Shown here: piece after piece, positions 7,136-40,507 of the stretch
Position numbering within the stretch: the stretch's first letter is position 1
Layout: each line of letters begins with the position of its first letter
The notes under the pieces: model-generated
Databases searched by the model: none
The model's input: only the letters and a program-made list of their open reading frames with translations
Told to the model about the DNA's origin: nothing
Position numbers and translations under genes: made by a program
Assembly: GCA_025998755.1 (NCBI GenBank)
Contig: AP024674.1
Location: forward strand, 1,020,004 to 1,084,003
Direction: 5' to 3'
DNA from: Armatimonadota bacterium
Lineage (GTDB): Bacteria > Armatimonadota > UBA5829 > DSUL01
DNA length: 64,000 bases

Positions 7136-7915
7136 TCAGGGCAGGATGTCCAAGGGGCTGGCCGCCAACTTGCGGATGGTGCGCGCGTCCAGCCGCTCTA
7201 CGCCGGGATTGCCCGCCGCCCGGTCGCAGTAGTCCGAGCGGTTGAACCGCAGGATGATCTCCAGAGGAGGCTCAACGTGGAACGGACGGGCGACTCCAAT
7301 CAACCCGACAGCCCTCCGCGCCGCTTCTCGGATGCACCTGCGCGCCTCATCCAGCGGCACCAGCCGCGCAGAGTTCCGTCCCTCACCTTCTTTGACGACC
7401 GCCGTCTCCACCGGCTGGAGGAACTGCTCCGCCTCTGCACAGGCGGCCGCGTCCCCGCTGACCATCACCAGCGGCAAACCGAAGTGACCCGCAATAATCG
7501 CCCACTGCGCCAGCTCTCCCATCCGCCTGCCGTTGACGCTGTAATCATGCCAGCTCACCGAGGACTGCGTATGGTCGAGAAACGCATTCAGGGTGCCCGC
7601 CATCGCGTGCGCGCCGATAACGAAGGTGGCATCGAAGGAAGAATCCATCTGACCCCACCACCGAGCAGTAGGTCGGGGATCCTCTTCGGCACGCGGATCC
7701 AAAAGCTCGAGGATGAAATTCGGACCTCCGCCGTGTCCGTCCCGAACCATCACACGGGTCGCCCCGCCTTCGAATGCCCCCTCGACAGCCGCATTCAGAT
7801 CTCCCATCAGGAGCTCGCAGCACTCCTGGAACCTGGGATGTTCCCTCTCGATCATTTCGGCGGAGTCTATTCCGCTGATGCCTTCCAGGTCGGTCATGAT
7901 GTAAATGCTGGGCAC
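7136..7915 (-). CDS. M55 family D-aminopeptidase (DppA-like)
   Basis: A 259-residue protein matching peptidase family M55, the zinc D-aminopeptidases typified by Bacillus DppA, which release N-terminal D-amino acids such as D-Ala from peptides. All expected positions are present: Asp9 and Glu11 (MTDLEGISG), His61 (VRDGHGGG), His103 (GAHAMAG), Thr116 next to His115 (the family nucleophile), and Glu134 (RRMGEL). The GTG at 7915 is preferred because AAGGAG lies about 11 bases upstream; the longer frame to 7981 has no such site. It is convergent with the secreted protein gene at 4435 (4 bases between them). A role in recycling peptidoglycan peptides is likely but not shown. Confidence 0.9.
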   Translation of the reverse strand: MPSIYIMTDLEGISGIDSAEMIEREHPRFQECCELLMGDLNAAVEGAFEGGATRVMVRDGHGGGPNFILELLDPRAEEDPRPTARWWGQMDSSFDATFVIGAHAMAGTLNAFLDHTQSSVSWHDYSVNGRRMGELAQWAIIAGHFGLPLVMVSGDAAACAEAEQFLQPVETAVVKEGEGRNSARLVPLDEARRCIREAARRAVGLIGVARPFHVEPPLEIILRFNRSDYCDRAAGNPGVERLDARTIRKLAASPLDILP

Positions 7916-7994
7916 TCGCTCACTTCTCCTTCCACGCGCGTAACAATGACCTTCGTGGCCTGTGCTCAATCCACCCTGCAACCCTTACTCGACA

Positions 7995-8153: not shown

Positions 8154-8864
8154 ATGGCGAAAAGTATCGGCGTCGTCCTCTTGGGCTGCGCCCTGGTCCT
8201 CGCAATGTGCCCGCCCTCTCAGGGCACCGTAATGATCAGCGAGATCATGTACAACCCTAACAGCACGGAGGCTATTCCTGTCCAGACCGAGTGGATTGAG
8301 ATCTACAACTACGGGACAGCATCCGTGGACATTTCTGGATGGTATATTTCCGACGAGGATGGCGCATCATCCGTTACCATCCCTGCGGGAACATTCATCA
8401 GTCCCGGTGAGGCCATTGTGCTGTTTCCCTCGGTGATCACGGTGGCGGATTTCCAAGCTGCGTGGGGAACAGGCTTCACGGCCTTCCCGATGGATTTCGA
8501 ATCACTGTTCGGCCTCTCGAACAGTCCCAGTCCAACCAACGAGATCCTGGTGCTCCGGGACGCATTGGGAAACGCCGTGGATACCGTCAACTACGATGAC
8601 GCCGCGCCTTGGCCACTGGATACCCCGGATGGACCTAGCATCCACGTATTGCCCGGGTTCCTCAATCCGATCGCCAATGACAACGGCGCCAACTGGGCCC
8701 GCTCCCAGGTAGGAGTGAACGGCGCCTTCGCCGTGAGCCAGACATTGATCTTCAACGGCAATGACGCTGGATCGCCGGGAGTCGTGGTGCCCGAACCAGG
8801 GACACTCGTTGCGCTGGGTATCGGTCTGGCCAGCCTGATGGGAGGACTCCGCCGCAAGGCGTAA
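8154..8864 (+). CDS. Secreted lamin-tail-domain protein with PEP-CTERM anchor
   Basis: A 236-residue protein with a signal peptide (MAKSIGVVLLGCALVLAMC..). A lamin tail domain (LTD) starts at the typical VMISEIMYNPNS and continues through EWIEIYNYGTASVDISGWYI and ISPGEAIVLF. The C-terminus is a PEP-CTERM sorting signal (VPEPGTLVALGIGLASL then GGLRRKA), which exosortase normally cleaves to anchor or release proteins at the cell surface. No exosortase gene is in this window. A strong GAAAGGAGAG precedes the ATG. LTDs occur in bacterial secreted nucleases such as ExeM and YhcR, and the next three genes carry OB-fold, nuclease-like and nucleotidase modules, so a shared extracellular role is possible. 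Confidence 0.9.
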   Translation: MAKSIGVVLLGCALVLAMCPPSQGTVMISEIMYNPNSTEAIPVQTEWIEIYNYGTASVDISGWYISDEDGASSVTIPAGTFISPGEAIVLFPSVITVADFQAAWGTGFTAFPMDFESLFGLSNSPSPTNEILVLRDALGNAVDTVNYDDAAPWPLDTPDGPSIHVLPGFLNPIANDNGANWARSQVGVNGAFAVSQTLIFNGNDAGSPGVVVPEPGTLVALGIGLASLMGGLRRKA

Positions 8865-8892
8865 AACACCATCCCTGGCAGAGAGGTGAAAA

Positions 8893-8932
8893 GTGAACGG
8901 CCGTCCGGCGATCCTGCCGGGCGGCCGTTCAC
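8893..8932 (-). terminator. Long GC hairpin between convergent genes
   Basis: An 11-bp perfect stem, GTGAACGGCCG (8893-8903) with CGGCCGTTCAC (8922-8932), with further pairing inside the loop. On the minus strand it is followed by TTTT, so it best serves the phospholipase-D-fold gene. It may also stop plus-strand transcripts of the LTD gene. Confidence 0.7.
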
Positions 8933-8951
8933 GATTATAATGTCCTCTCCC

Positions 8952-10922
8952 TTATGGAGACACAAGCACCCGGATGTCTGTCTGAAGGGACGGACGCAGC
9001 ACACGCACGTTCTGGCCGTTCACGTACTCCATCGTGCTTATGCCGTCCACCGTTACGAACGATCCCACTGGTGGACGCGTGAGGAATCCGGAACTGACCT
9101 TTACGCCCGGGAAGCCGGAGTATCCATCCGAGTAACCGCTGCCGTCATCCAACCAGAAAGACAGAGAGCCCCACCCCGTCACCTTCCCGGCGCAACGCAC
9201 CCTCAGGCCCGTGTTGTAAAGCCCCTGCCCGCCTGCGACGCTCCGCGTATACCCGTCCGGTGGACTGGCTCCTCCCAACCAGACCGCCCGCAGCGTCAGA
9301 GGCGCAGGGACGACACCCGGATCCGGCTGCACCGCCACGGCCTGCGCCTCGACATACCGCTCGCCCGTGCCGCCGTTGAGGGCTTTCAGTATTCCGCGCA
9401 CCGCCACCCTTTGCCCCCGGGCCGGTACCGCCCCGGAGGTCTCCACACGGATCCCCGCACTGCGATCATCCTGCTGAATGTAGAACGCTTGCCCGAAAAC
9501 GGCGGTCACAGTGCAGGGAGCCAGGCTGACAGGCGAGCCGGGCGGTTTGAGCAGCGACTCGCCGATGCGGTCGTCTCCCGTCACTATTCCAAGGGTCTCG
9601 CCGATCCAACGGGCGTCCGCAGCGTCAATGCGGCCGTCCCCGAAAATGTGGCCGCCCACTCCCGGATACGGTTCCACATCCCCCACGATCAGCTGATACG
9701 GTGAGGCGGGATTACCGGTAGAAGCCAGCGCCAGTGCGATCGCGTAGTCCGCCTGGGTCAGAGCTCCGTCCCCGTCCAGGTCTCCGTAGCGCCGCACCGG
9801 CTGAGTGCCGTTCGCATTCGCGGAGCGCTCCACGTAGAGTCTTCGGAAATAGTCGTAATAATGGTTGCTCCACCACTCCGAAGAGAGGATCGCCACGTTC
9901 TCGTCGTTCGTCAGGTCCGCAGCGTTGGACCAGTTGTTCGATCCCACGAACACCTTCGCCTGCGGCGTCCCCGCATCCACAATCATGAGCTTGTTGTGCA
10001 TCGCGTTCAGGCCGCCGATGTAGTCGCCCAGGCTGATTCCCGGAACATTCACCAGATTGTCCCACTGCGCCGAAGACTGGTTGTCCTCGTCGAAGACACC
10101 GCGAACATCAATGCCCTGCGCCGCAGCCCATTTCAGCGCCTCCGCGATCTCATAAGCCCGTGTGCCGTCCGAAAAAACGTTGACCAGGAAATAAACGCTG
10201 CGGTTAGCTGAATAGATGGCGGTCGTGATGCGGCCGGTGAGGTCATCATCAGGCCCGAAGCGCACCTCCACCGGCACGCCGTCGTTCGTGAAAAAACTGT
10301 TCGGGAAGGTGGGCTGCCCGCGGTTGCTATAGATGCCGTTCCACATCTCCTCGAACTCGGCTGTATAGGCCGCGGCAATGCCCTGCCCCTCCAGAATGAG
10401 GACATTGTTCTCCTGAGACAGACACCCTGCTGATGTGAAATTCGTGGATCCCGTCAGCACACGCCAGCCGTCGGCCACCATGAACTTGTTGTGCATGATG
10501 CCGCCGGGATTACCGGAACGGACTACGCCCCGGTTGATGACGCCGTTGGCCACTCCATCCGAGAGGATGTCCAGAATAGTGAACTGAGTGCCCGTCTCCT
10601 CGTTCACATCCGTGACCAGACGCAGCGCAACCCCTCGCGAGCGCGCCGCCTGCAGGGCTCCGGCGATATCCGTGAGCCGCCCTCCACTGATCCCGTACGT
10701 CAGGGTGTAGATGGCGACATCCAGGGTATTCTGCGCCGAGTTGATGAACTCCACGATGGCGTCCCGTACCGCGGTGCTGGAGTTCGGAGGATCGGTAAAT
10801 ACCACCCGGGTCTGTGCCGAGGCAGAAGCCGCAAAGAGGACGGCGGCCAGAATGATGGCCACAGAGCCCGGCCACCCGCGTAAACCGCTGCGCAACCCCC
10901 GGCTTTTCGGGAACGCTCTCAC
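8952..10922 (-). CDS. Secreted phospholipase D-superfamily protein with dockerin-like and twin OB-fold domains
   Basis: A 656-residue protein. A signal peptide ends near residue 37 (FAASASAQ). Two HKD motifs mark a complete PLD-superfamily catalytic pair: MHNKFMVADG (His144, Lys146, Asp151) and MHNKLMIVDAG (His309, Lys311, Asp316). Residues ~380-450 hold a type I dockerin-like pair of calcium loops (GDLDGDGALTQADYAIAL and FGDGRIDAADARWIGETL). Residues ~465-656 are two OB-fold-like units (FYIQQDDRSAGIRV; FWLDDGSG), nearly the same as in the protein at 38175. PLD-fold secreted enzymes include the Nuc-type endonucleases as well as lipases, so a nuclease role is plausible but unproven. The GTG start overlaps the upstream nucleotidase stop (GTGA), which suggests translational coupling. 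Confidence 0.85.
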   Translation of the reverse strand: MRAFPKSRGLRSGLRGWPGSVAIILAAVLFAASASAQTRVVFTDPPNSSTAVRDAIVEFINSAQNTLDVAIYTLTYGISGGRLTDIAGALQAARSRGVALRLVTDVNEETGTQFTILDILSDGVANGVINRGVVRSGNPGGIMHNKFMVADGWRVLTGSTNFTSAGCLSQENNVLILEGQGIAAAYTAEFEEMWNGIYSNRGQPTFPNSFFTNDGVPVEVRFGPDDDLTGRITTAIYSANRSVYFLVNVFSDGTRAYEIAEALKWAAAQGIDVRGVFDEDNQSSAQWDNLVNVPGISLGDYIGGLNAMHNKLMIVDAGTPQAKVFVGSNNWSNAADLTNDENVAILSSEWWSNHYYDYFRRLYVERSANANGTQPVRRYGDLDGDGALTQADYAIALALASTGNPASPYQLIVGDVEPYPGVGGHIFGDGRIDAADARWIGETLGIVTGDDRIGESLLKPPGSPVSLAPCTVTAVFGQAFYIQQDDRSAGIRVETSGAVPARGQRVAVRGILKALNGGTGERYVEAQAVAVQPDPGVVPAPLTLRAVWLGGASPPDGYTRSVAGGQGLYNTGLRVRCAGKVTGWGSLSFWLDDGSGYSDGYSGFPGVKVSSGFLTRPPVGSFVTVDGISTMEYVNGQNVRVLRPSLQTDIRVLVSP

Positions 10923-12499
10923 CGGGCCGACCCGGCCGGGCGGGCGGCGCCGGCTCCTTCCACCGTGAACCAGCCGCGCACCGCGGGGCGGACCGTGCCC
11001 TGTGCCCGGATGTAGTCCGCGATGACGTCACGGATCCAACGTCCCGTTTCCCTCACACCCGAAGCCTGCCGGTACAGGCTGTTCTCAACGCCGCGGACCG
11101 CATTGTAATGGTTGATGGCCACCGTGAGCACGGCATCATCCGCCAGCGGCCGGCCGTTATACTCCACCCGTACAAGCCTTTCTCCTCTGGGCCGGGAGAC
11201 ATCGAAAACATAGTTGATTCCGGCCGCGGTCAGGAACCGCCAGGTGCCGTATCCCCCGATGCCGTCCTCCAGATAGTCCTTGAGTTGCCGACCGGTCAGC
11301 GTGAGCACCCACAGGGCGTTGTCGTACTCGTACATCTCCGCCACATCCTGGTTCGTGACAGGGCCGGCGGGAATAACCGTGCTGTTGTTGAATACCACGT
11401 GGAGTGTGACATCGGCTCCTGTGGCCCATTTCATGGCATCGTGGATCAGGTTGACTGCGGCGTTCTCCTCTTGCTGGGCGCGCCGGAAATCAAGCGGCAC
11501 GGCGGTCTCTCCAATCACTTCCTCCGCCCATTTCTTCCAGCGCTGTTCGAACGGCGCAACAACCTTTTCCAGAACAGCATCCTGAGGCACGTCCGCTGTC
11601 ACGGGGATCAACTGCGCCTTCCGGGACACAACCCGTACCCCGTCCGGTGACTTCTCGACCTCCAGCGTCACCTTCCCCAGATGGCTGCCCCATTTGCCGG
11701 CGGCAGTCAACACGGCTCCGCCCGCCTCCAGCGATTCCACCGGAACGTGCCGATGCCCGCAGATGATTACGTCCACCCCCGGGCACTCACGCGCGATGTC
11801 CGCCCCGGCTGCTGCGGCGCTCGGATACCTCTCATTCTCGCGGCGCTCCGCTCCGGTATGCGCCAGCAGCACCAGCACGTCACAGAGCGGCCTGACACGC
11901 GGCACCCATTCGCGTGCCGCCGCGATGATGTCCACGAACCGCAGACCTTCGATGTAGGACGGCTGCTCCCAGTTCGGGACGTCCGAGACCGTCAGCCCCA
12001 GCACCCCCACCCTGACGCCCTTGCGCTCCAGGATGACGAACGGCTCGAAAACAGGCTCTCCGCTGCTTGCCCGGACAACATTGGCTGACAGCCAGGGGAA
12101 CCGGGACGCTTGCCGCATCCGCTCGATGACCCGCGGCCCGAAGTTGAACTCGTGGTTCCCGGCCGTCATGGCGTCGTAGTTCAGCGCGTTCATGCCTTCG
12201 ATGATGTGCCGCCCCTTGAACATAAACGCCATCGAGTTGCCCTGGATGGTATCCCCGTTGTCCAGCAAAATCGCTTCCGGATCAGTTCTCCGCTCCCGCC
12301 GGATCAGTGTGCCGATGCGGTCCAGCCCTCCCATCTCCTGCCCGTCGTCAGCACGGTGGGAACGCAAATAGCCGTGCAGGTCCGTCGTGTGAAGAATGGT
12401 GAGGGTGACAGTCTCTGCTGCCCCCGCAGGAGGCCAGAATAAAGAGAGGGTGGCGATAACAGCGGCAGCGAGAAGAGCCAGTCCGAGCGGTATCCTCAT
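10919..12499 (-). CDS. Secreted 5'-nucleotidase / UshA-type metallophosphoesterase
   Basis: A 526-residue protein with a signal peptide (MRIPLGLALLAAAVIATLSL..PAGA). The calcineurin-like phosphoesterase domain shows TTDLHGY (Asp40, His42), LLDNGDTIQGN (Asp83), TAGNHEFNFGP (Asn115-His116-Glu117) and ICGHRHVP. A 5'-nucleotidase C-terminal domain follows, with NNSTVIPAG and LKDYLEDGIGGYG. Family members hydrolyse extracellular or periplasmic nucleotides to nucleosides plus phosphate. AGAGG lies 7 bases before the ATG. The stop overlaps the start of the PLD-fold gene by four bases, so the two are almost certainly expressed together. This supports the idea that products of nucleic-acid cleavage are dephosphorylated here. 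Confidence 0.93.
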   Translation of the reverse strand: MRIPLGLALLAAAVIATLSLFWPPAGAAETVTLTILHTTDLHGYLRSHRADDGQEMGGLDRIGTLIRRERRTDPEAILLDNGDTIQGNSMAFMFKGRHIIEGMNALNYDAMTAGNHEFNFGPRVIERMRQASRFPWLSANVVRASSGEPVFEPFVILERKGVRVGVLGLTVSDVPNWEQPSYIEGLRFVDIIAAAREWVPRVRPLCDVLVLLAHTGAERRENERYPSAAAAGADIARECPGVDVIICGHRHVPVESLEAGGAVLTAAGKWGSHLGKVTLEVEKSPDGVRVVSRKAQLIPVTADVPQDAVLEKVVAPFEQRWKKWAEEVIGETAVPLDFRRAQQEENAAVNLIHDAMKWATGADVTLHVVFNNSTVIPAGPVTNQDVAEMYEYDNALWVLTLTGRQLKDYLEDGIGGYGTWRFLTAAGINYVFDVSRPRGERLVRVEYNGRPLADDAVLTVAINHYNAVRGVENSLYRQASGVRETGRWIRDVIADYIRAQGTVRPAVRGWFTVEGAGAARPAGSAR

Positions 12500-12534
12500 G
12501 TGCGAACCTCTTTACCTATACGATGGTTCCTGGA

Positions 12535-12563
12535 GCAAGAAGGGGGCCCGCTCCCGGGCCCCC
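12535..12563 (-). terminator. GC hairpin terminator between the OB-fold gene and the nucleotidase gene
   Basis: A 9-bp perfect stem (12542-12550 with 12555-12563) with a 4-base loop. It is followed on the minus strand only by a short pyrimidine tract (TTCTTGC). It lies between the stop of the OB-fold gene and the start of ushA-like, and may be an attenuating or partial terminator. Confidence 0.5.
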
Positions 12564-12606
12564 TCCCGCAGATTATCACAAGCCCGATGGATCGGTCCGT
12601 CGCATG

Positions 12607-14553
12607 TCAGTCCACGACGGTCAGATCAGCCTCATTCCTGGGGAAAATGTCCACCGTATACCGGTCCCACCCTGTCTCCGGGTCCGAGGTAAGGAAACCA
12701 TCCAGCAGACCTGTCACGGTCACGGTCTTCCCTACCGCCGGGTACCAGCTTGTCGGCGGGAACGGCTGCCGCCACTGGATCTTCACCGTCGCTCTGGAAC
12801 CGGTCGCATCCTGAATGATGAACTGGCGGTTACCCGGATTGCTTGACGTCACTTTACCCGTCACCCGGACCAGCGCTCCGATCGGGTTCGGCCGCGCTTC
12901 CGGCTGCGCCAGGTCCAGGCGCATGTTCATGGGACGAGGCGTGGTGAGGGGCTCGCCGGTCTTGATGGAATACGTTGCCGTTCCGCCCGGATAGATGACC
13001 TCTCTCTTGGCGAAGTAGGTGGTCAGCTGCCCGAAGACCAGCACGCGCTCGCCGATGTCATAACGGATCCATGTGTTCGGATCCGCCTGTGCGCCCGCCG
13101 GCCATCCGAAGCCGAGGATCCCGGCCGTGCCGTCCGGGTCGCCGACAAACAGCCACTGCCGGAAGCCCCCCGTGAATCCGGGCGGCACGCTGCCGGTAAA
13201 GCCGAGCGCTCCCGAAGTCACGACGCGCGGCGTGTTGACATACACCCACATGTCATCCGGCAGCGCGCGGGTCTGGCCGATGGTGTCCACACGCGCCGCC
13301 ACAGAGACAAGCACGTTCGCGTGCTGGTTCTGGTAACGGATCGGCACGATATACTGACCCGGAGCCTGACCCGATGGGATGACAAGGGTATAGGTGTAGG
13401 GATCGGCCTGAGTGGCTCCCGGCGCAAGAACCTGAGAAGAAGAAAGGCCGAAGGCGCTCAGGTCCGCAGTCACCGTCTGATTGGGCGCCGAAACCCAGGC
13501 CTGGATGATCACGCTGGTGCCAGGCAGGCGGGTGCGGTTTGGAGTGGTATTGTCCACGAACGCCTGCGTGCGGGTGATGCAGGGATAGTTGGCCGGCTGA
13601 GTCTCCTGCACGTCGGCGGTCTCGCGAAGCACAAGCTGCGCCACCGAGTATGCTTTCTGCCCCACCAGCACCTGCCGGGTCTCCAGCATCCCGATGACGG
13701 GCTCTGTGCTGCCGTTGGAGGCCGCATTGGGATCCACATTCGCCGTGGAGGGCACGCGGACCCGAAGCACCCGGCCCGGGGAGGCGTCTTCGCTCAGGAA
13801 GAAGTCTCCCAGACGCTGCGCGCCGCTGGTGTCGGTAACTGTAAAGACTCCCCACTTGCGCGCGTCCACCACGCGCACAAGCATCCCCTGATACGGGTTG
13901 TCCACGAAGTGCCGTTCGGACTGAGGATCGGTGGACGGCTCCGGATACCAGGTGTGCCCCATGATCCGGTGCCGGGTGACCAGATTCTCTCCGCCTCCGA
14001 TCCCGCCCGCGAACGGGAGGTCCGAGATCCGCACATCGAGCGGGGGCGGAGGGCTGCCCGACCCGAGCTTCACCACGGACCCGGCGAACGCCCCGGTGGA
14101 GAACGAGGCGTCTATCTCCACCTCCATCCCCAGGGTGGTGGAGCCACCGTGGTAGATCTTCGCCAGACCGGTGACCTCAACATAGTCGCCGCGCTGCAGC
14201 TGAGACGCCACCACATTCGAGTTCCCGCTGAAGAAGACCTTGATGGCGTTCGAGTAGCGCCGTCCGCTCCCCGGCGGAAGCTCTGTGCCGGCAGTAGCCG
14301 AATCCTGCACCCAGAAATAGGCAGAACTGATACGGTCCGGGCCGCTGGGCTGTGCGGTGATGATGCCCGCCACCCGGACATAAGGAGCCGCCGGAGCCTG
14401 CGAGTTCCAGGCATCAATGGCCAATTTGCGGGCTTCGGCGATGCTGCTGACGGGAATCTGAGCAAAGGCCGCCGCCGGATAGACGAAGGCGGCGCCTGCA
14501 ATCAGTGACGCCAGGAGCATCCGGCCAATGCGCCCGTGTCCTTTCGTGAACAT
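12607..14553 (-). CDS. Secreted multi-OB-fold protein of unknown function
   Basis: A 648-residue protein with a signal peptide (LLASLIAGAAFVYPAAAFAQ). It contains at least three OB-fold-like segments. One is at ~55-150 (YVRVAGIITAQ, YFWVQDSATAG, GDYVEVTGLAKIY). One is at ~450-520 (FVGDPDGTAGILGFGW, GERVLVFGQLTTYF). The last is at ~555-648 (LVRVTGKVTSSN, FIIQDATGS, GKTVTVTGLLDGF). The middle (~330-430) looks like beta-sandwich repeats (GTSVIIQAWVSAPNQTVTAD). OB folds of this YhcR-like kind accompany secreted nucleases and can bind nucleic acid or sugars. There is no catalytic domain. AAAGGAGAG lies about 10 bases before the ATG. It precedes the nucleotidase and PLD-fold genes on the same strand, though a hairpin sits between them. 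Confidence 0.75.
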   Translation of the reverse strand: MFTKGHGRIGRMLLASLIAGAAFVYPAAAFAQIPVSSIAEARKLAIDAWNSQAPAAPYVRVAGIITAQPSGPDRISSAYFWVQDSATAGTELPPGSGRRYSNAIKVFFSGNSNVVASQLQRGDYVEVTGLAKIYHGGSTTLGMEVEIDASFSTGAFAGSVVKLGSGSPPPPLDVRISDLPFAGGIGGGENLVTRHRIMGHTWYPEPSTDPQSERHFVDNPYQGMLVRVVDARKWGVFTVTDTSGAQRLGDFFLSEDASPGRVLRVRVPSTANVDPNAASNGSTEPVIGMLETRQVLVGQKAYSVAQLVLRETADVQETQPANYPCITRTQAFVDNTTPNRTRLPGTSVIIQAWVSAPNQTVTADLSAFGLSSSQVLAPGATQADPYTYTLVIPSGQAPGQYIVPIRYQNQHANVLVSVAARVDTIGQTRALPDDMWVYVNTPRVVTSGALGFTGSVPPGFTGGFRQWLFVGDPDGTAGILGFGWPAGAQADPNTWIRYDIGERVLVFGQLTTYFAKREVIYPGGTATYSIKTGEPLTTPRPMNMRLDLAQPEARPNPIGALVRVTGKVTSSNPGNRQFIIQDATGSRATVKIQWRQPFPPTSWYPAVGKTVTVTGLLDGFLTSDPETGWDRYTVDIFPRNEADLTVVD

Positions 14554-14654: not shown

Positions 14655-15443
14655 TCACTGAGACGGGTAGTTCTGATAGGGCCAGAAAGGCACCCACATA
14701 TCCGGCATCTCGCCGGTATAGTTGCCACGCACGTAAGTGGGGCGCGTGGAACCTGGCTTAGGCAGATAACTGCCAAAATAGGCATTGGACCAAGTGTCCG
14801 GCGGGAACACCGCAGCTGCGTGTCCGTCCCCGAAAACCACGTTCATCTTCCCGTTGTGCATACAGATGGGAAGGCCACCCGGCCCACCGAAATGCGGCGA
14901 ACCATTGCGGAAGGCATATGCCTCCGGAGTGGCATCCTGGAAGGTCTCGAAGATCAGGATTGTGCGTGCCGGATTCTGGAACAGAGAGGCCTTCATGCCC
15001 GTGGTGGGCCAGTTGCCTCTGCCCCGGTTGAAGGGCCGCACATAGTCGTTGAAGCAGTAGCTACGGCCCATGCTGGCGCCGCGCCCGGTGGTGGCCGTCA
15101 CGGTAGGCCTCTTGCCCAGCGGGCACCGCCAGACCGTATCGCCGGCCGACTTGTTCGTCATATATTTGTCCAGGCCGCCATTGACATCCTCATCCCAGGC
15201 CGGTGCGCGGGTGTCGCCGCCGGGGTACGGGAGAACCCCGTGCCAGTCGTCGGCATACATCAGACACGCCAGCCCCAGCTGCTTCAGATTGCTGAGACAG
15301 CGGGCCTGCTGCGCGCGGCCGCGCGCCTGGCTGAAAACGGGAAAAAGGATGCTGGCAAGGATCGCGATGACCGCGATCACGACGAGAAGCTCAATGAGCG
15401 TGAATCCGCGGGACGGTTTTCGCACTTTTCCTCTGCCCCTCAT
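14655..15443 (-). CDS. Type II secretion/pilin-like pseudopilin (DUF1559 type)
   Basis: A 262-residue protein with a prepilin N-terminal methylation signal ([18 protein letters not shown]) that runs into [16 protein letters not shown], then [20 protein letters not shown]. This is the arrangement of the large DUF1559-like pseudopilin families of Armatimonadota and Planctomycetota. The C-terminal [16 protein letters not shown] carries the family's DGHAA motif. A prepilin peptidase would cleave after the Gly before FTLIEL. The annotated ATG has no clear ribosome site; a GTG 18 bases downstream follows AGAGGAAAA and would give a start just before the signal, so the true start may be 15425. It lies upstream of the OB-fold gene and may belong to the same secretion-related block. 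Confidence 0.88.
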
Positions 15444-16638: not shown

Positions 16639-18243
16639 TCAATCGCCCGGACCCGGAACGCGCCCGTGCACCCGGGATTCCCGCTCCACCAGGTTGGAAA
16701 GACGCCACCGGCGCCGCTGATCGCGCGTCCACGACCGGCGGTCTCCATCGCAGGTCACTCGGATGGCCGCCACCGGCCCACCGGCGGGGCAGTTGTTCTC
16801 GCAGATGCCGCACCCAACGCAGCGGACCTCGTCCACATGCGGACGACGGATACCCCCCGCCTCCTGCCAGTAGATCGCCTGATAAGAGCACACCTCATCA
16901 CACACCAGGCAGTCCTTGCCGGACTCCCAAACCACACAGACGCTGCGATCTATTACGGCCCTGCCGATGTAGAGATGATCTTTCTCCTGCACGGTGAACG
17001 GACAGATCGCTTCGGTGGGGCACACCTCTCCGCACAGATTGCAATTCTGGACGCATTCTCCCACCCGAGGCATCAGCACCGGGGTCCATACTCCACCGAT
17101 CCCCCCTTCGAGCAGCGCGGGCTGCAACCCGTTCGTGGGACACACTTTCATGCACGCGCCGCACCGGATGCAGCGCTCGCGGAACAGCTCTTCCGCAACG
17201 GAGCCCGGCGGACGGATGAGACCCTGCCGGACAATGCGCGATGCTCCGTCCCGCGTGGGCCGCGCGGCCAGCTCCGTGCGCGCGGCAAAAGCCCAGAGAG
17301 CTCCCAGCCCCGCAGCGGCAAGCAATCTTCTGCGGTCCAGGTCCAGCGGCACACTTTCCGTGCGCACTGAAGGAGCCACGCACACCGCATCGCGCGGGCA
17401 TCCGCTGACGCAGGAATAGCAGTAGATGCACTCAGATGGATCGTTCACCTGCCCCCCGCCGGAGACGGAATCCATCCGGCAGTCCAGCCGGCAGAGGGTG
17501 CACTCCCGGCACGCCGCCGAGACCTTTCTGCGAAACACGCTGATGCGGGCGATGACTCCTAATAGTGCCCCCAGCGGACACAGCGAGCGGCACCAGAATC
17601 TGCGCGAGAGGACCCCTCCCGCCAGGATCGCCGTGAGGATGATCAGCGCGGCCAGGTTCGAGCGGAAGTGAGCCTGCCCCTCCGGCAGCACCGAGCGAAA
17701 GGCGCCTGCGACAGGCGGACCGGCCACGGGCAAACGCTCCAGTTGCCCGCAAGCCCATTGCAGCGGCGCGAACACCCCGAGCGTCAGGCTGCGCATCAGG
17801 AGCGGCAGAGGATCCAGGAACCAGACCACCTGCGCTCCCATCAAAGCCGTGAGTGCCACTCCAGCCAGCACGTAGTATTTGAGCCGAGGCCATGAATGTT
17901 CCGAGGTGGTCCGTCTTTCGCGACGCTTCCGGGTCAGTCGGTCGCAGGCGTCGATACACGTCCCGAGGGGACACACCCATCCGCAGAACGCCCGACCGAA
18001 CAGCAGCGCCAGAACAAGCACCGGAATCGCCCATAGAAAGACGGGAAACAGGAACGACCGGGCCGCCAGCATCGTGGACAGCGCCGCAAGGGGATCCAGG
18101 CGAAGGAAAAGGTCCACGGGAACGCCGCCCCGCAATCGGAGCGCCCCACCCCCTGCCCAGTCCACGCTGCCGAGTGTCAGCAGGAACAGAGCAATGAATG
18201 CGGCCAGAAAAAAGAGTTGTGAGGCGCGGCGCGCAAGTCTCAT
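16639..18243 (-). CDS. NapH-like membrane polyferredoxin fused to a NapG/MauM-like ferredoxin
   Basis: A 534-residue protein. The N-terminal ~230 residues have about four to five membrane helices and the NapH/MauN-type motifs FCGWVCPLGTCIDACDR and FWCRSLCPLGALLG. Then come Cys-rich iron-sulfur motifs CTLCRLDCRMD and CIYCYSCVSGCP. A second half follows a twin-arginine-like or hydrophobic segment (DRRRLLAAAGLGALWAFAAR) and carries CIRCGACMKVCP, CNLCGEVCP, CLVCDEVCS and CVGCGICENNCP, as in NapG/MauM. It should pass electrons between membrane quinol and a partner. GAGGG lies 8 bases before the ATG. It is the last gene of an operon behind two DUF362 genes, so those are its likely partners. No nitrate reductase or methylamine dehydrogenase is nearby. 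Confidence 0.88.
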   Translation of the reverse strand: MRLARRASQLFFLAAFIALFLLTLGSVDWAGGGALRLRGGVPVDLFLRLDPLAALSTMLAARSFLFPVFLWAIPVLVLALLFGRAFCGWVCPLGTCIDACDRLTRKRRERRTTSEHSWPRLKYYVLAGVALTALMGAQVVWFLDPLPLLMRSLTLGVFAPLQWACGQLERLPVAGPPVAGAFRSVLPEGQAHFRSNLAALIILTAILAGGVLSRRFWCRSLCPLGALLGVIARISVFRRKVSAACRECTLCRLDCRMDSVSGGGQVNDPSECIYCYSCVSGCPRDAVCVAPSVRTESVPLDLDRRRLLAAAGLGALWAFAARTELAARPTRDGASRIVRQGLIRPPGSVAEELFRERCIRCGACMKVCPTNGLQPALLEGGIGGVWTPVLMPRVGECVQNCNLCGEVCPTEAICPFTVQEKDHLYIGRAVIDRSVCVVWESGKDCLVCDEVCSYQAIYWQEAGGIRRPHVDEVRCVGCGICENNCPAGGPVAAIRVTCDGDRRSWTRDQRRRWRLSNLVERESRVHGRVPGPGD

Positions 18244-18271: not shown

Positions 18272-19210
18272 TCAGACGCGAGTCACCGCGATCCGCGCAA
18301 GATCCCCCACCCCCAACCCAAGATCCTGCGCCCGGCCGATATAGGCGACATCCGCGGGCTTGAGGCCGAAGAGCGTGCTTGCATACGCGTCTGCCGCCAC
18401 TGGATCCCGCGAGACGATGACCTCCCGCGGATCGGCGGTCTCACCCGGCCCCTTGGGACCATTCGTCAACAGGATACGCGTGGCATCCACCACGGTCAGA
18501 TGAATAGGCACCGCGGTGGCGTAATCGGCGATGTACTGGTGCAGATCCGGACCTGTGTGCCATGCCTGCCGGTTCCAGTTCACGCCCATCAGGTTCTTCA
18601 GGCCCAGAGTGAGCTCCGTGGCAGAATGCTGCTTGGCCTTGGGCATGTTGATCAGAACATCCGCGTCTCGTACAATACGCGCCACCGTGTCCCGCTTCAT
18701 CAGCCGTCCCAAAGGGACATCCAGGGGAACGTAATCGGACTGGCTTGAGCCCACGATCACCTCTGCTCCCGCCTCGGCGGCCGCCCGTCCTATGCCTGTC
18801 ATGGCGAGCACCTGCGCCGCGGGCCGGTCTATGGTGTGCTCGAACACGATTACCCGTCCCGCACCGTGCTTCAGGCACAGACGTGTCATCGCCGCCACCA
18901 GAGCGGGATCCGTGGTGGCCGCCTGGGGCGGGGTTCGGGCCCACGCGGCGTTCGGCTTCAGGACCACCGTGGCCCCCTCAGGGATAAAGCCCAGTCCTCC
19001 GGCAGCCTCGATGGCCGCTTCCAGGGAGATGGCCGCATCGTCACCACGTCCGACGAAGACCTTTCCCCGCACGTCTTCAGGAAGGAGCATCGCCGGAGCG
19101 GATGCGGTTCCGGCGTTTCCGGCCGGAGTGTCACTTACGCGCCCGCAACCGTGCAGCGCCAGCCCGCCGCAGGCCAGCCCCGTCAACTCCAGAAATCGCC
19201 GTCTGTCCAT
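18272..19210 (-). CDS. DUF362 domain protein with Tat-type signal
   Basis: A 312-residue protein starting MDRRRFLELTGLACGG, a twin-arginine signal with a lipobox-like end (LALHGC). The body is DUF362, with VFVGRGDDAAISLEAAIEAAGG, VVLKPNAAW, VLINMPKAKQHSATELTLGL and NLMGVNW, and ends ..VSRDPVAADAYASTLFGL. DUF362 proteins are widespread and mostly uncharacterised; many occur with iron-sulfur proteins. The start at 19210 was chosen because GGAGG lies 6 bases upstream, rather than the ATG at 19240 that abuts the upstream stop. It is the third gene of a four-gene operon and a divergent paralogue of the DUF362 protein at 19747. Export in folded form suggests that it carries a cofactor. Confidence 0.87.
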   Translation of the reverse strand: MDRRRFLELTGLACGGLALHGCGRVSDTPAGNAGTASAPAMLLPEDVRGKVFVGRGDDAAISLEAAIEAAGGLGFIPEGATVVLKPNAAWARTPPQAATTDPALVAAMTRLCLKHGAGRVIVFEHTIDRPAAQVLAMTGIGRAAAEAGAEVIVGSSQSDYVPLDVPLGRLMKRDTVARIVRDADVLINMPKAKQHSATELTLGLKNLMGVNWNRQAWHTGPDLHQYIADYATAVPIHLTVVDATRILLTNGPKGPGETADPREVIVSRDPVAADAYASTLFGLKPADVAYIGRAQDLGLGVGDLARIAVTRV

Positions 19211-19240
19211 CCTCGACCTCCGCAGCCGCCGCACCTCCAT

Positions 19241-38174: not shown

Positions 38175-40340
38175 CTACGGCGCGAGTGGCGTGTAGTCCG
38201 CGGGGACCTGCTGCTCCCTGCCGCGCAGGACGCGGATTGTCTTGCCGTTGCGCACTTCGGACGTGATGACACCGACGATACTGAGGTAATCGCCGGGCAT
38301 CGGATACACCTCAGAGCGGATGACCTTCACGCCCGTGGCATCGTCCTGGGCATCCACGCCGGAGCCGTCATCGAGCAGGAAGTAGCCCTCCAGCCAGTCC
38401 ATCTTCGTGACCTTGCCGTATACCCGGACCAGCAGGCCTTCATTTTCGATGCCCACGTTGGTGGGCTGACCATCGGGACCAACGAACCGCGGGCCGCCCA
38501 CGCTGCGGCTGCCGATGTTGCGGATCTTGGTGGTGCCGGTGCCTATCTTGGTTACGGTGGTGTCGCGCAGCACGCGCTCGCCCGTATCGAGCGTGCGCAG
38601 GATGCCCTTCACCTGGACCTTGTCACCGATGCTGACGCTTGCTCCCGACTCCACACGGATACCCGCGGTCCCGTCCTCGTCCTGGACATAGAAGAACCCG
38701 GACTCGGAGAGCGGCACCAGGGTCACGATGGCGCCGTTGGTCGTCTCAACCATCGTATAGTCCGGCTGAGCCTTGGCCTGTCCGATGGACGCCACCGGAA
38801 TGGTCTCCGCCGGAGGGCCGGTCACTCGGACGTTGTCAACAGCCGTGATGTTCCACTGAAGCTGCCACTTCTGCTGGAACCGCACGAATACCGTGATTGC
38901 GTTGCTCTCCGCGACAGCCTCCACGCTCACAGGCACCCACTTGATCGGCAGGGTGTTGTCCCCGTGAGCGGGGTCGGTAGACCAGACAATCCAAGAAGGC
39001 TTCGGATTCGGGTCATTCGGATCCGGTGCGGGGCCGGGATCCACGCCGCCCTTCGGGTCAATGCCAACCCAGACCTGGCAGTCCCAAGGGGCTCCACCGT
39101 TTGCGAACGTCGCGATATACGCGTCCACACGATAAGTCATCCCCGGAACCGCCTTGAAGCGCTGATAGAAGCCGCCCTGCTTGCGATCATAGTTGCCGCC
39201 CGCGCCCGCGAAGTACTGGCCGTGCTGCGTGTTCACCACACCGAGCCAGCGCGGAACACCGCTCGTGGGATACGGGCCGATGTAGCCGCTGGCGTCGCCG
39301 CCGTTACCTCCGCCCACCACGGGGAATGATCGCCACCCCACAGCCGTCCGGCTGGAACCGGAGCCCTGGATCTGCTCGAAGCTGCCGTTGGTGAAGGTCG
39401 GCAGAGCCTCAGGGGGAGTGCGGAAGGTCTTGTCCAGCGAGTAGACCGTCTTGTAGCCCGTGGCCGCGCTCCGGACGCGGTAGTGATACTCCGTATCCGG
39501 CGAGAGACCGGTCAGCAGGACTCTGTGCACCTGCACATTGCCCGGAGCCTGGGCCGTCATGGGATAGACCGCTCCATCATCGCCGTTCGGGGACGCAGGA
39601 CCATACTCCACCACAGAGCTGGACGGGACATCAGTGGTCCACTCAATCTCGAAGGTGGTGTCCGACACCTGGGTTGCCTTAGGGCCGTCTGTAATGTTGA
39701 TCCTCAGCGTGCTCCCGGCCGGCTGCACAGAGACGTTGTCCACATCAACCATCAGCCAGGCAGTGGCCTCTGGCATAATGCCACGCACCCAGATACTGGT
39801 TGGGCCGTTCGCATTGAAGCGCACGGAATATCGGCTCCAGGCGTCACTTTCCTGGAAATCGATCCAGTTAATGGAGTTAGCCAGTGGGTTGGTGGTCTGT
39901 CCCGTAAGGTCGTAGCCCACCGACCCCGTCGGGATGACTGACTGGTTGGCGATGTTGAGCCGGAACATCCGGGCATCGATGTCCAGGTCATACGCCTGGC
40001 CCGCCACCGTGTTCACCACCTGCAGGATCCCGCCGCGGAAGCTGCTGCTGCGGATGGAACCACCGATGATGCGCTGGTAGTTGTTGGCGTTAGGGTCCGG
40101 GACACCCGTGTTTCCTGGCATGCTCCACATGGCCGGATCGCCAGGCTGGGACGTCGGCGTAGCCGGCAGACGGGCGCTCCAAGCCGTCCATCCCGCCCCA
40201 ACCCAATCGCCCAGTCCAGGGGGGGCCGGAGTCCACGTTCCTTCGAAGTCGCCGTTGGTGACCAGGTTCTGAGCGCTCACGCCGGCTCCCACGGTCAGAA
40301 GGAACGCAAGCATAATCAAATTGCAGCGCCACAATCGCAT
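38175..40340 (-). CDS. Secreted protein with two carbohydrate-binding-like domains, Fn3-like domain and twin OB folds
   Basis: A 721-residue protein with a signal peptide (WRCNLIMLAFLLTVGAGVSAQ). In order: a jelly-roll module starting NLVTNGDFEGTWTP (~25-210); an Fn3/phosphatase-N-like domain with TTFEIEWTTDVPSSSVVEYG and LTGLSPDTEYHYRVRS (~215-305); a second jelly-roll module starting FTNGSFEQIQGSG (~315-530); and two OB-fold-like units (FFYVQDEDGTAGIRVES and GYFLLDDGSGVDAQ) to the end. The OB pair closely resembles that of the PLD-fold protein at 8952. The second jelly roll resembles the PEP-CTERM protein at 40604. No catalytic motif is seen. AGGA lies 10 bases before the ATG; a longer frame reaches 40412. 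It probably binds glycan or nucleic acid outside the cell. Confidence 0.82.
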   Translation of the reverse strand: MRLWRCNLIMLAFLLTVGAGVSAQNLVTNGDFEGTWTPAPPGLGDWVGAGWTAWSARLPATPTSQPGDPAMWSMPGNTGVPDPNANNYQRIIGGSIRSSSFRGGILQVVNTVAGQAYDLDIDARMFRLNIANQSVIPTGSVGYDLTGQTTNPLANSINWIDFQESDAWSRYSVRFNANGPTSIWVRGIMPEATAWLMVDVDNVSVQPAGSTLRINITDGPKATQVSDTTFEIEWTTDVPSSSVVEYGPASPNGDDGAVYPMTAQAPGNVQVHRVLLTGLSPDTEYHYRVRSAATGYKTVYSLDKTFRTPPEALPTFTNGSFEQIQGSGSSRTAVGWRSFPVVGGGNGGDASGYIGPYPTSGVPRWLGVVNTQHGQYFAGAGGNYDRKQGGFYQRFKAVPGMTYRVDAYIATFANGGAPWDCQVWVGIDPKGGVDPGPAPDPNDPNPKPSWIVWSTDPAHGDNTLPIKWVPVSVEAVAESNAITVFVRFQQKWQLQWNITAVDNVRVTGPPAETIPVASIGQAKAQPDYTMVETTNGAIVTLVPLSESGFFYVQDEDGTAGIRVESGASVSIGDKVQVKGILRTLDTGERVLRDTTVTKIGTGTTKIRNIGSRSVGGPRFVGPDGQPTNVGIENEGLLVRVYGKVTKMDWLEGYFLLDDGSGVDAQDDATGVKVIRSEVYPMPGDYLSIVGVITSEVRNGKTIRVLRGREQQVPADYTPLAP

Positions 40341-40507
40341 AATCACTCTGTCCTTTCGCACGAGACCGACAGCGTTCCCCACTTCCGGCGCGGCACCCTC
40401 ACGCGCCGACATGCAACCACCTTGAGAACGCTCATTCAGAAGTTATTATGCCCTACCGGAGGGCAGAAGTCATGGCATGAAGGGACGGATCACAGGTCCC
40501 ACACGCA

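Follow-up and report, generated by a model that had tools for sequence, protein, structure and literature searches.

Four adjacent genes in the window, that is, the whole 64,000-nucleotide stretch of Armatimonadota DNA analyzed here, raise the question of whether a secreted nuclease machine can be divided over separate proteins. The earlier note had read them as a distributed YhcR/ExeM-like set for extracellular nucleic-acid scavenging, with a lamin-tail domain (LTD), a PLD-fold enzyme, a nucleotidase, and an OB-fold protein each encoded by its own gene. The host genome is a single contig of 3.29 Mb, and the ORF list contains all four frames where the earlier note had placed them. The features of the locus are the following.

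8154..8864, plus strand: lamin-tail-domain protein with signal peptide and C-terminal PEP-CTERM (Pfam LTD 9.3e-21; PEP-CTERM 9.3e-5)
8893..8932, no strand: hairpin between convergent genes (RNA fold -40.4 kcal/mol, z -7.0)
8952..10922, minus strand: secreted PLD-superfamily protein with two HKD motifs, 656 aa, GTG start (PLDc_2 2.5e-35, two stretches)
8964..9584, minus strand: tandem OB-fold C-terminal module, residues 447-653 of the PLD protein (AlphaFold2, Foldseek, profile match)
9588..9791, minus strand: dockerin-like linker with a single DxDGDG loop (Dockerin_1 12.5 bits, below the cut-off of 22.9)
9975..9998, minus strand: HKD motif 2, HNKLMIVD, residues 309-316 (motif scan)
10470..10493, minus strand: HKD motif 1, HNKFMVAD, residues 144-151 (motif scan)
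10919..10922, minus strand: 4-base overlap GTGA of phosphoesterase stop and PLD start (ORF list; kept in G001)
10919..12499, minus strand: secreted phosphoesterase of the 5'-nucleotidase family (Pfam 5_nucleotid_C 1.1e-30; Metallophos 5.3e-13)
12607..14553, minus strand: secreted OB-repeat protein, 648 aa, lineage-specific (tRNA_anti-codon 1.9e-6; Rep_fac-A_3 5.2e-5)
12700..13275, minus strand: copy of the tandem-OB module, residues 427-618 of the OB-repeat protein (module HMM E 6.6e-25)
14655..15443, minus strand: pseudopilin (N_methyl 1.1e-9; SBP_bac_10/DUF1559 7.8e-7)

The genes of the OB-repeat protein, the phosphoesterase, and the PLD protein, as well as the pseudopilin gene upstream of them, all lie on the minus strand. 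The GTGA overlap is as the earlier note had described it and is retained in G001, a relative of the same genus. The LTD gene, by comparison, is on the plus strand and converges with the PLD gene, 3' end towards 3' end; the hairpin between them is terminator-like for the minus-strand operon and is followed by TTTT on that strand. Because of the opposite strand and the strong hairpin, the LTD gene was ruled out as an operon member; it is probably a neighbor outside the operon, and its cotranscription with the minus-strand genes is unlikely. The LTD and the PEP-CTERM claimed for its product are both borne out by HMM. With this motif and three exosortases in the host genome, the protein qualifies as an exosortase substrate, and its LTD is the sole one above cut-off in that genome. 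The LTD gene is also adjoined by an M55 D-aminopeptidase gene (DppA family; window 7136-7981, minus strand). At the other end, the pseudopilin gene is possibly the first gene of the operon, and the OB-repeat gene is set off from its neighbors by gaps of about 100 bases. No uptake transporter adjoins the locus in the window. Further away, a polyferredoxin combines NapH/NapG-like parts in a single chain (window 16639-18243, minus strand), with a gene of unknown family beside it (18272-19240).

The 8952-10922 protein belongs to the PLD superfamily by its fold and its two HxKx4D motifs, which are intact, as the earlier note had it, and conserved across an alignment of 48 homologs. Among solved structures, nucleases make up most of the matches of its family profile (Zucchini/mitoPLD 1e-25, Nuc 1e-22, NucT 2e-15, PLD3 1e-9), with one chain called phospholipase in addition (1e-12). 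A Foldseek search with the PLD model, which is of moderate quality (pLDDT 75.9), places phospholipase D (7e0m) first, ahead of PLD3/PLD4, with PLD1/2 and phosphatidylserine synthase also among the later matches. Since phospholipase D leads this search, the fold is compatible with lipid substrates. As judged from the profile, which speaks for a nuclease, and from the mixed fold search, nucleic acid is favored over lipid as the predicted substrate. Two other assignments were discarded: a defense role, because the PADLOC matches to DrmC and DpdK reflect generic PLD similarity, and the dockerin-like domain of the earlier note, which scores below the Pfam cut-off and whose DxDGDG loop occurs in just one of 59 proteins with the same C-terminal module.

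The phosphoesterase carries both domains of the 5'-nucleotidase family together with the DLHG, DNGD, GNHE, LAHTG, and GHRH motifs. It had been called UshA-type, of which the family assignment holds and the subtype does not: NCBIfam UshA gives 168 bits against a cut-off of 600, and the catalytic domain is closer to YfkN (5.5e-36) and CpdB (9.5e-33) than to UshA (1e-24) among solved structures. YfkN and CpdB are herein nearest relatives only, as PRK09420 reaches 185 bits against a cut-off of 486. The protein shares GNHEFN with YfkN/CpdB, the dyad motif of the UshA type being GNHEFD (His-Asp). No NGGxR-like motif was recognized in its C-terminal domain; relatives such as those at loci L047 and L048 have NAGGIR or NAGGVR there. 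The closeness to YfkN/CpdB, the GNHEFN motif, and the lack of a recognizable NGGxR-like motif point to 2',3'-cyclic or 3' nucleotides as predicted substrates as much as to 5' nucleotides. The same family bears on a scheme of phospholipid or glycerophosphodiester scavenging, in which the PLD protein would hydrolyze phospholipids, the metallophosphoesterase would take the phosphorylated products, and the OB module would serve attachment. Lipid enzymes occur in both EEP and PLD folds, the Foldseek ranking is in line with such a scheme, and a transporter found in relatives of the host resembles UgpA/UgpB besides sugar systems. However, the PLD profile mostly matches nucleases, and the phosphoesterase comes from a family with nucleotides as substrates and has cyclic nucleotide phosphodiesterases as its closest solved relatives. 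Lipid scavenging is considered an unlikely alternative to nucleic-acid degradation.

An OB fold is generally taken as a sign of nucleic-acid binding, and OB folds were part of the earlier case for a shared function. Their presence in the PLD protein is supported by structure prediction and Foldseek, and they amount to one tandem-OB module, predicted by AlphaFold2 to be all-beta (pLDDT 95.6) and matching the OB-fold proteins POT1, RPA14, and AspRS. The first half of the module has a profile match to the OB region of the EEP-domain protein 9sf8 (E 1.6e-5) and the second half to archaeal RPA14 (2e-5). Neither Pfam nor NCBIfam names the module on the PLD protein, the YhcR_OBF-type family has no match in the four proteins, and no literature on a named tandem-OB tail in Armatimonadota was found. 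The OB-repeat protein is OB-rich by HMM, as had been proposed; it has no BLAST relative at 1e-8 across 30 genomes and no match in the PDB, and NCBIfam ExeM_NucH matches it weakly and in its OB part only (17 bits, cut-off 300).

The module extends far beyond this locus. A search with the PLD protein in 61 genomes gave dozens of matches that cover residues 445-655 only, the OB-tailed protein of a relative found 57 places in the host genome, and an HMM iterated from the PLD-protein module found about 59 genes there, both window proteins included, these counts being drawn from searches plus fetched stretches. In nearly all of the 59 proteins, the module ends at most about 31 residues from the C terminus. 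A hydrophobic N terminus is present in 50 of the 59, compared with 35 of 137 control ORFs, by a crude hydropathy test with uncurated start codons. The parts that precede the module are of diverse kinds, among them subtilases, fn3, amidases, cellulases, and beta-propellers. Among 151 Armatimonadota genomes, 18, all of the host's class, have at least 21 copies, against 0-3 in genomes of other classes. Hence, the tandem-OB module is a tail in general use among exported proteins, and since it is found on subtilases and cellulases, its presence alone is no marker of nuclease function or of a YhcR/ExeM set. Attachment, sorting, or polymer binding is its probable role. More tentatively, with the chances somewhat against it, it may be a lineage-specific sorting or surface-attachment tail, the class's counterpart of the T9SS tail or PEP-CTERM, borne by dozens of unrelated exported proteins in each genome and swapped onto enzymes with relatives in other phyla, the PLD protein being one of these. 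DNA binding deduced from charge was set aside, as the module, with a median net charge of -1, is close to neutral, which makes charge uninformative. The window contains a further OB-tailed protein of 745 aa with an fn3-like Pur_ac_phosph_N domain (38175-40412, minus strand; module 38214-38828).

In 291 Armatimonadota genomes, a close relative of the PLD protein occurs in three, all of one family, with one weak match elsewhere and no match at the threshold used in the remaining 287. The next-nearest PLD cores are those of Bacteroidota and Ignavibacteria, and of the 48 aligned members 45 carry Por_Secre_tail, 11 DUF5689, and two an LTD. In the best reading, the PLD core resembles T9SS-secreted proteins of Bacteroidota but has a local OB tail, which would hold the position of the T9SS sorting tail; acquisition of the core from a Bacteroidota/Ignavibacteria-like source with an exchanged tail is plausible.

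The earlier note had named scattering of the four genes in related genomes as grounds for refuting its reading, and beyond the genus they are scattered. G001 (69% complete) has LTD, PLD, and phosphoesterase genes together, at about 90% protein identity; its contig ends beside this set, which leaves the OB-repeat gene unplaced, and no relative of that protein was found. These three genes adjoin in the same genus only, and the LTD gene accompanies the set in G001 alone. In G003, of the same family, the PLD ortholog (55% identity) lies next to a penicillin-binding protein gene on an 8.6-kb contig devoid of nucleotidase and LTD genes. Four other genera of the class (G003, G011, G018, and G019) share a different set, made up of an EEP-domain protein that bears an Ig domain and the OB tail, a pseudopilin, and a UshA/CpdB-family enzyme. 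The EEP match is slightly below the Pfam cut-off, a single-sequence query of the domain against the PDB gave no match, and the gene is interrupted in G011 and ended by the contig edge in G018. The contigs of G011 and G018 run on and carry, next in line, genes of an SBP_bac_1 protein and permeases (an ABC transporter of the sugar or glycerol-3-phosphate type), and in G003 a permease-like gene comes next. The loci span L045 2208-6503, L046 4108-11167, L047 1-3917, and L048 3-6700. In each, the EEP-domain protein carries Big_7 and the OB tail; L046, where its gene is interrupted, and L048, where the contig end truncates it, are the two loci with the ABC transporter. The strongest argument for the nuclease-nucleotidase idea is this pairing, arisen independently, of a nucleotidase with an OB-tailed enzyme of phosphodiesterase fold.

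It also bears on whether the window genes are chance neighbors, only the nucleotidase and PLD genes being a unit and the others surface-protein genes without relation to it, in a genome where such genes abound. Fifty-nine OB-tail genes and 53 N_methyl (pseudopilin) matches in one genome speak for chance, the gaps on both sides of the OB-repeat gene fit it, and the excess of OB-tail genes near a pseudopilin is weak (eight against 3.5 expected; on the same strand, six against 1.8); for this last reason, the idea that OB-tail proteins always need a pseudopilin as partner was rejected. Three to four consecutive genes on one strand, and the analogous set in four other genera, argue against mere chance, which we regard as unlikely.

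Very unlikely is a true split YhcR/ExeM-type machine, in which the LTD, OB, PLD, and nucleotidase proteins would act in one complex. The same domain types do lie within 6.4 kb, ExeM joins LTD, OB region, and nuclease in a single chain (PMC6085458), and some PLD homologs bear an LTD or DUF5689. Set against this, the LTD gene is convergent and behind a hairpin, the PLD gene stands alone in G003, the OB tail sits on some 59 otherwise unrelated proteins, and neither an EEP nor a YhcR-type nuclease domain is present in the four proteins. ExeM itself can do without its LTD, its activity depending on the OB region (PMC6085458).

Most domain calls behind the proposed distributed set stand, and its conservation as a unit and the membership of the LTD gene do not. 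The shared nucleic-acid function is in part sustained, by the nuclease-dominated PLD profile, the sequence relation of the OB tail to 9sf8 and RPA14, and the EEP loci with a nucleotidase, and weakened by the scattering of the genes beyond the genus and the spread of the OB tail. The most likely reading, to which we give an even chance, is a genus-restricted operon that exports enzymes degrading nucleic acid on the cell surface or beyond it. Best read as recently assembled, it would comprise, in order, possibly the pseudopilin, then the OB-repeat protein, the CpdB/YfkN-like phosphoesterase, and the PLD-fold nuclease, in a putative single transcription unit. The PLD protein may cleave RNA or single-stranded DNA by way of a covalent phosphohistidine intermediate. 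The released nucleotides, possibly 2',3'-cyclic ones, would then lose their phosphates to the phosphoesterase, and the resulting nucleosides and phosphate would be taken up. The missing conservation of the set beyond the genus counts against this operon, as do the phospholipase D at the head of the fold search, the missing uptake transporter beside the locus, the sugar or glycerol-3-phosphate type of the transporter in relatives, and the below-cut-off EEP match there.

Loci joining a nuclease and a nucleotidase for extracellular nucleic acid are already known, and what the operon contributes by itself is a PLD-based variant from a phylum that has received little study. Of broader interest is the tail, one and the same double OB being found near the C terminus of proteins as different as subtilases, cellulases, amidases, and beta-propellers. 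Should the module be a sorting or attachment signal, the placement of exported proteins throughout a class would be explained, and caution would be due in deducing function from an OB tail.

Compared with known systems, the locus is most readily set beside Shewanella ExeM, with which it shares predicted secretion, an OB module profile-related to the OB region of 9sf8, and a nearby LTD gene. It differs in having a PLD instead of an EEP fold, separate chains, the LTD on the opposite strand, and a C-terminal position of the tandem OB. With Bacillus YhcR/YfkN it has in common the exported nuclease and nucleotidase functions predicted for its proteins and a phosphoesterase catalytic domain closest to YfkN, but the YhcR-type nuclease domain is missing and the proteins are separate; YhcR/YfkN are sortase-anchored (PMC3222306), and no counterpart was seen at the window locus. 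"Candidatus Izemoplasmatales" have colocalized genes that serve the use of extracellular DNA, one of them encoding a protein with both nuclease and LTD domains (PMC8289736), and differ in phylum, nuclease fold, and the transporter that the window locus lacks. The T9SS PLD-like proteins of Bacteroidota and Ignavibacteria resemble the PLD core at about 30-35% identity with both HKD motifs, some of them with DUF5689 or an LTD, whereas their Por_Secre_tail is replaced here by the class-specific tandem OB. NucT, Nuc, Zucchini, and PLD3 are PLD-superfamily nucleases that match the family profile; the first three have one HKD motif per chain, and all four are of another architecture and lack an OB tail.
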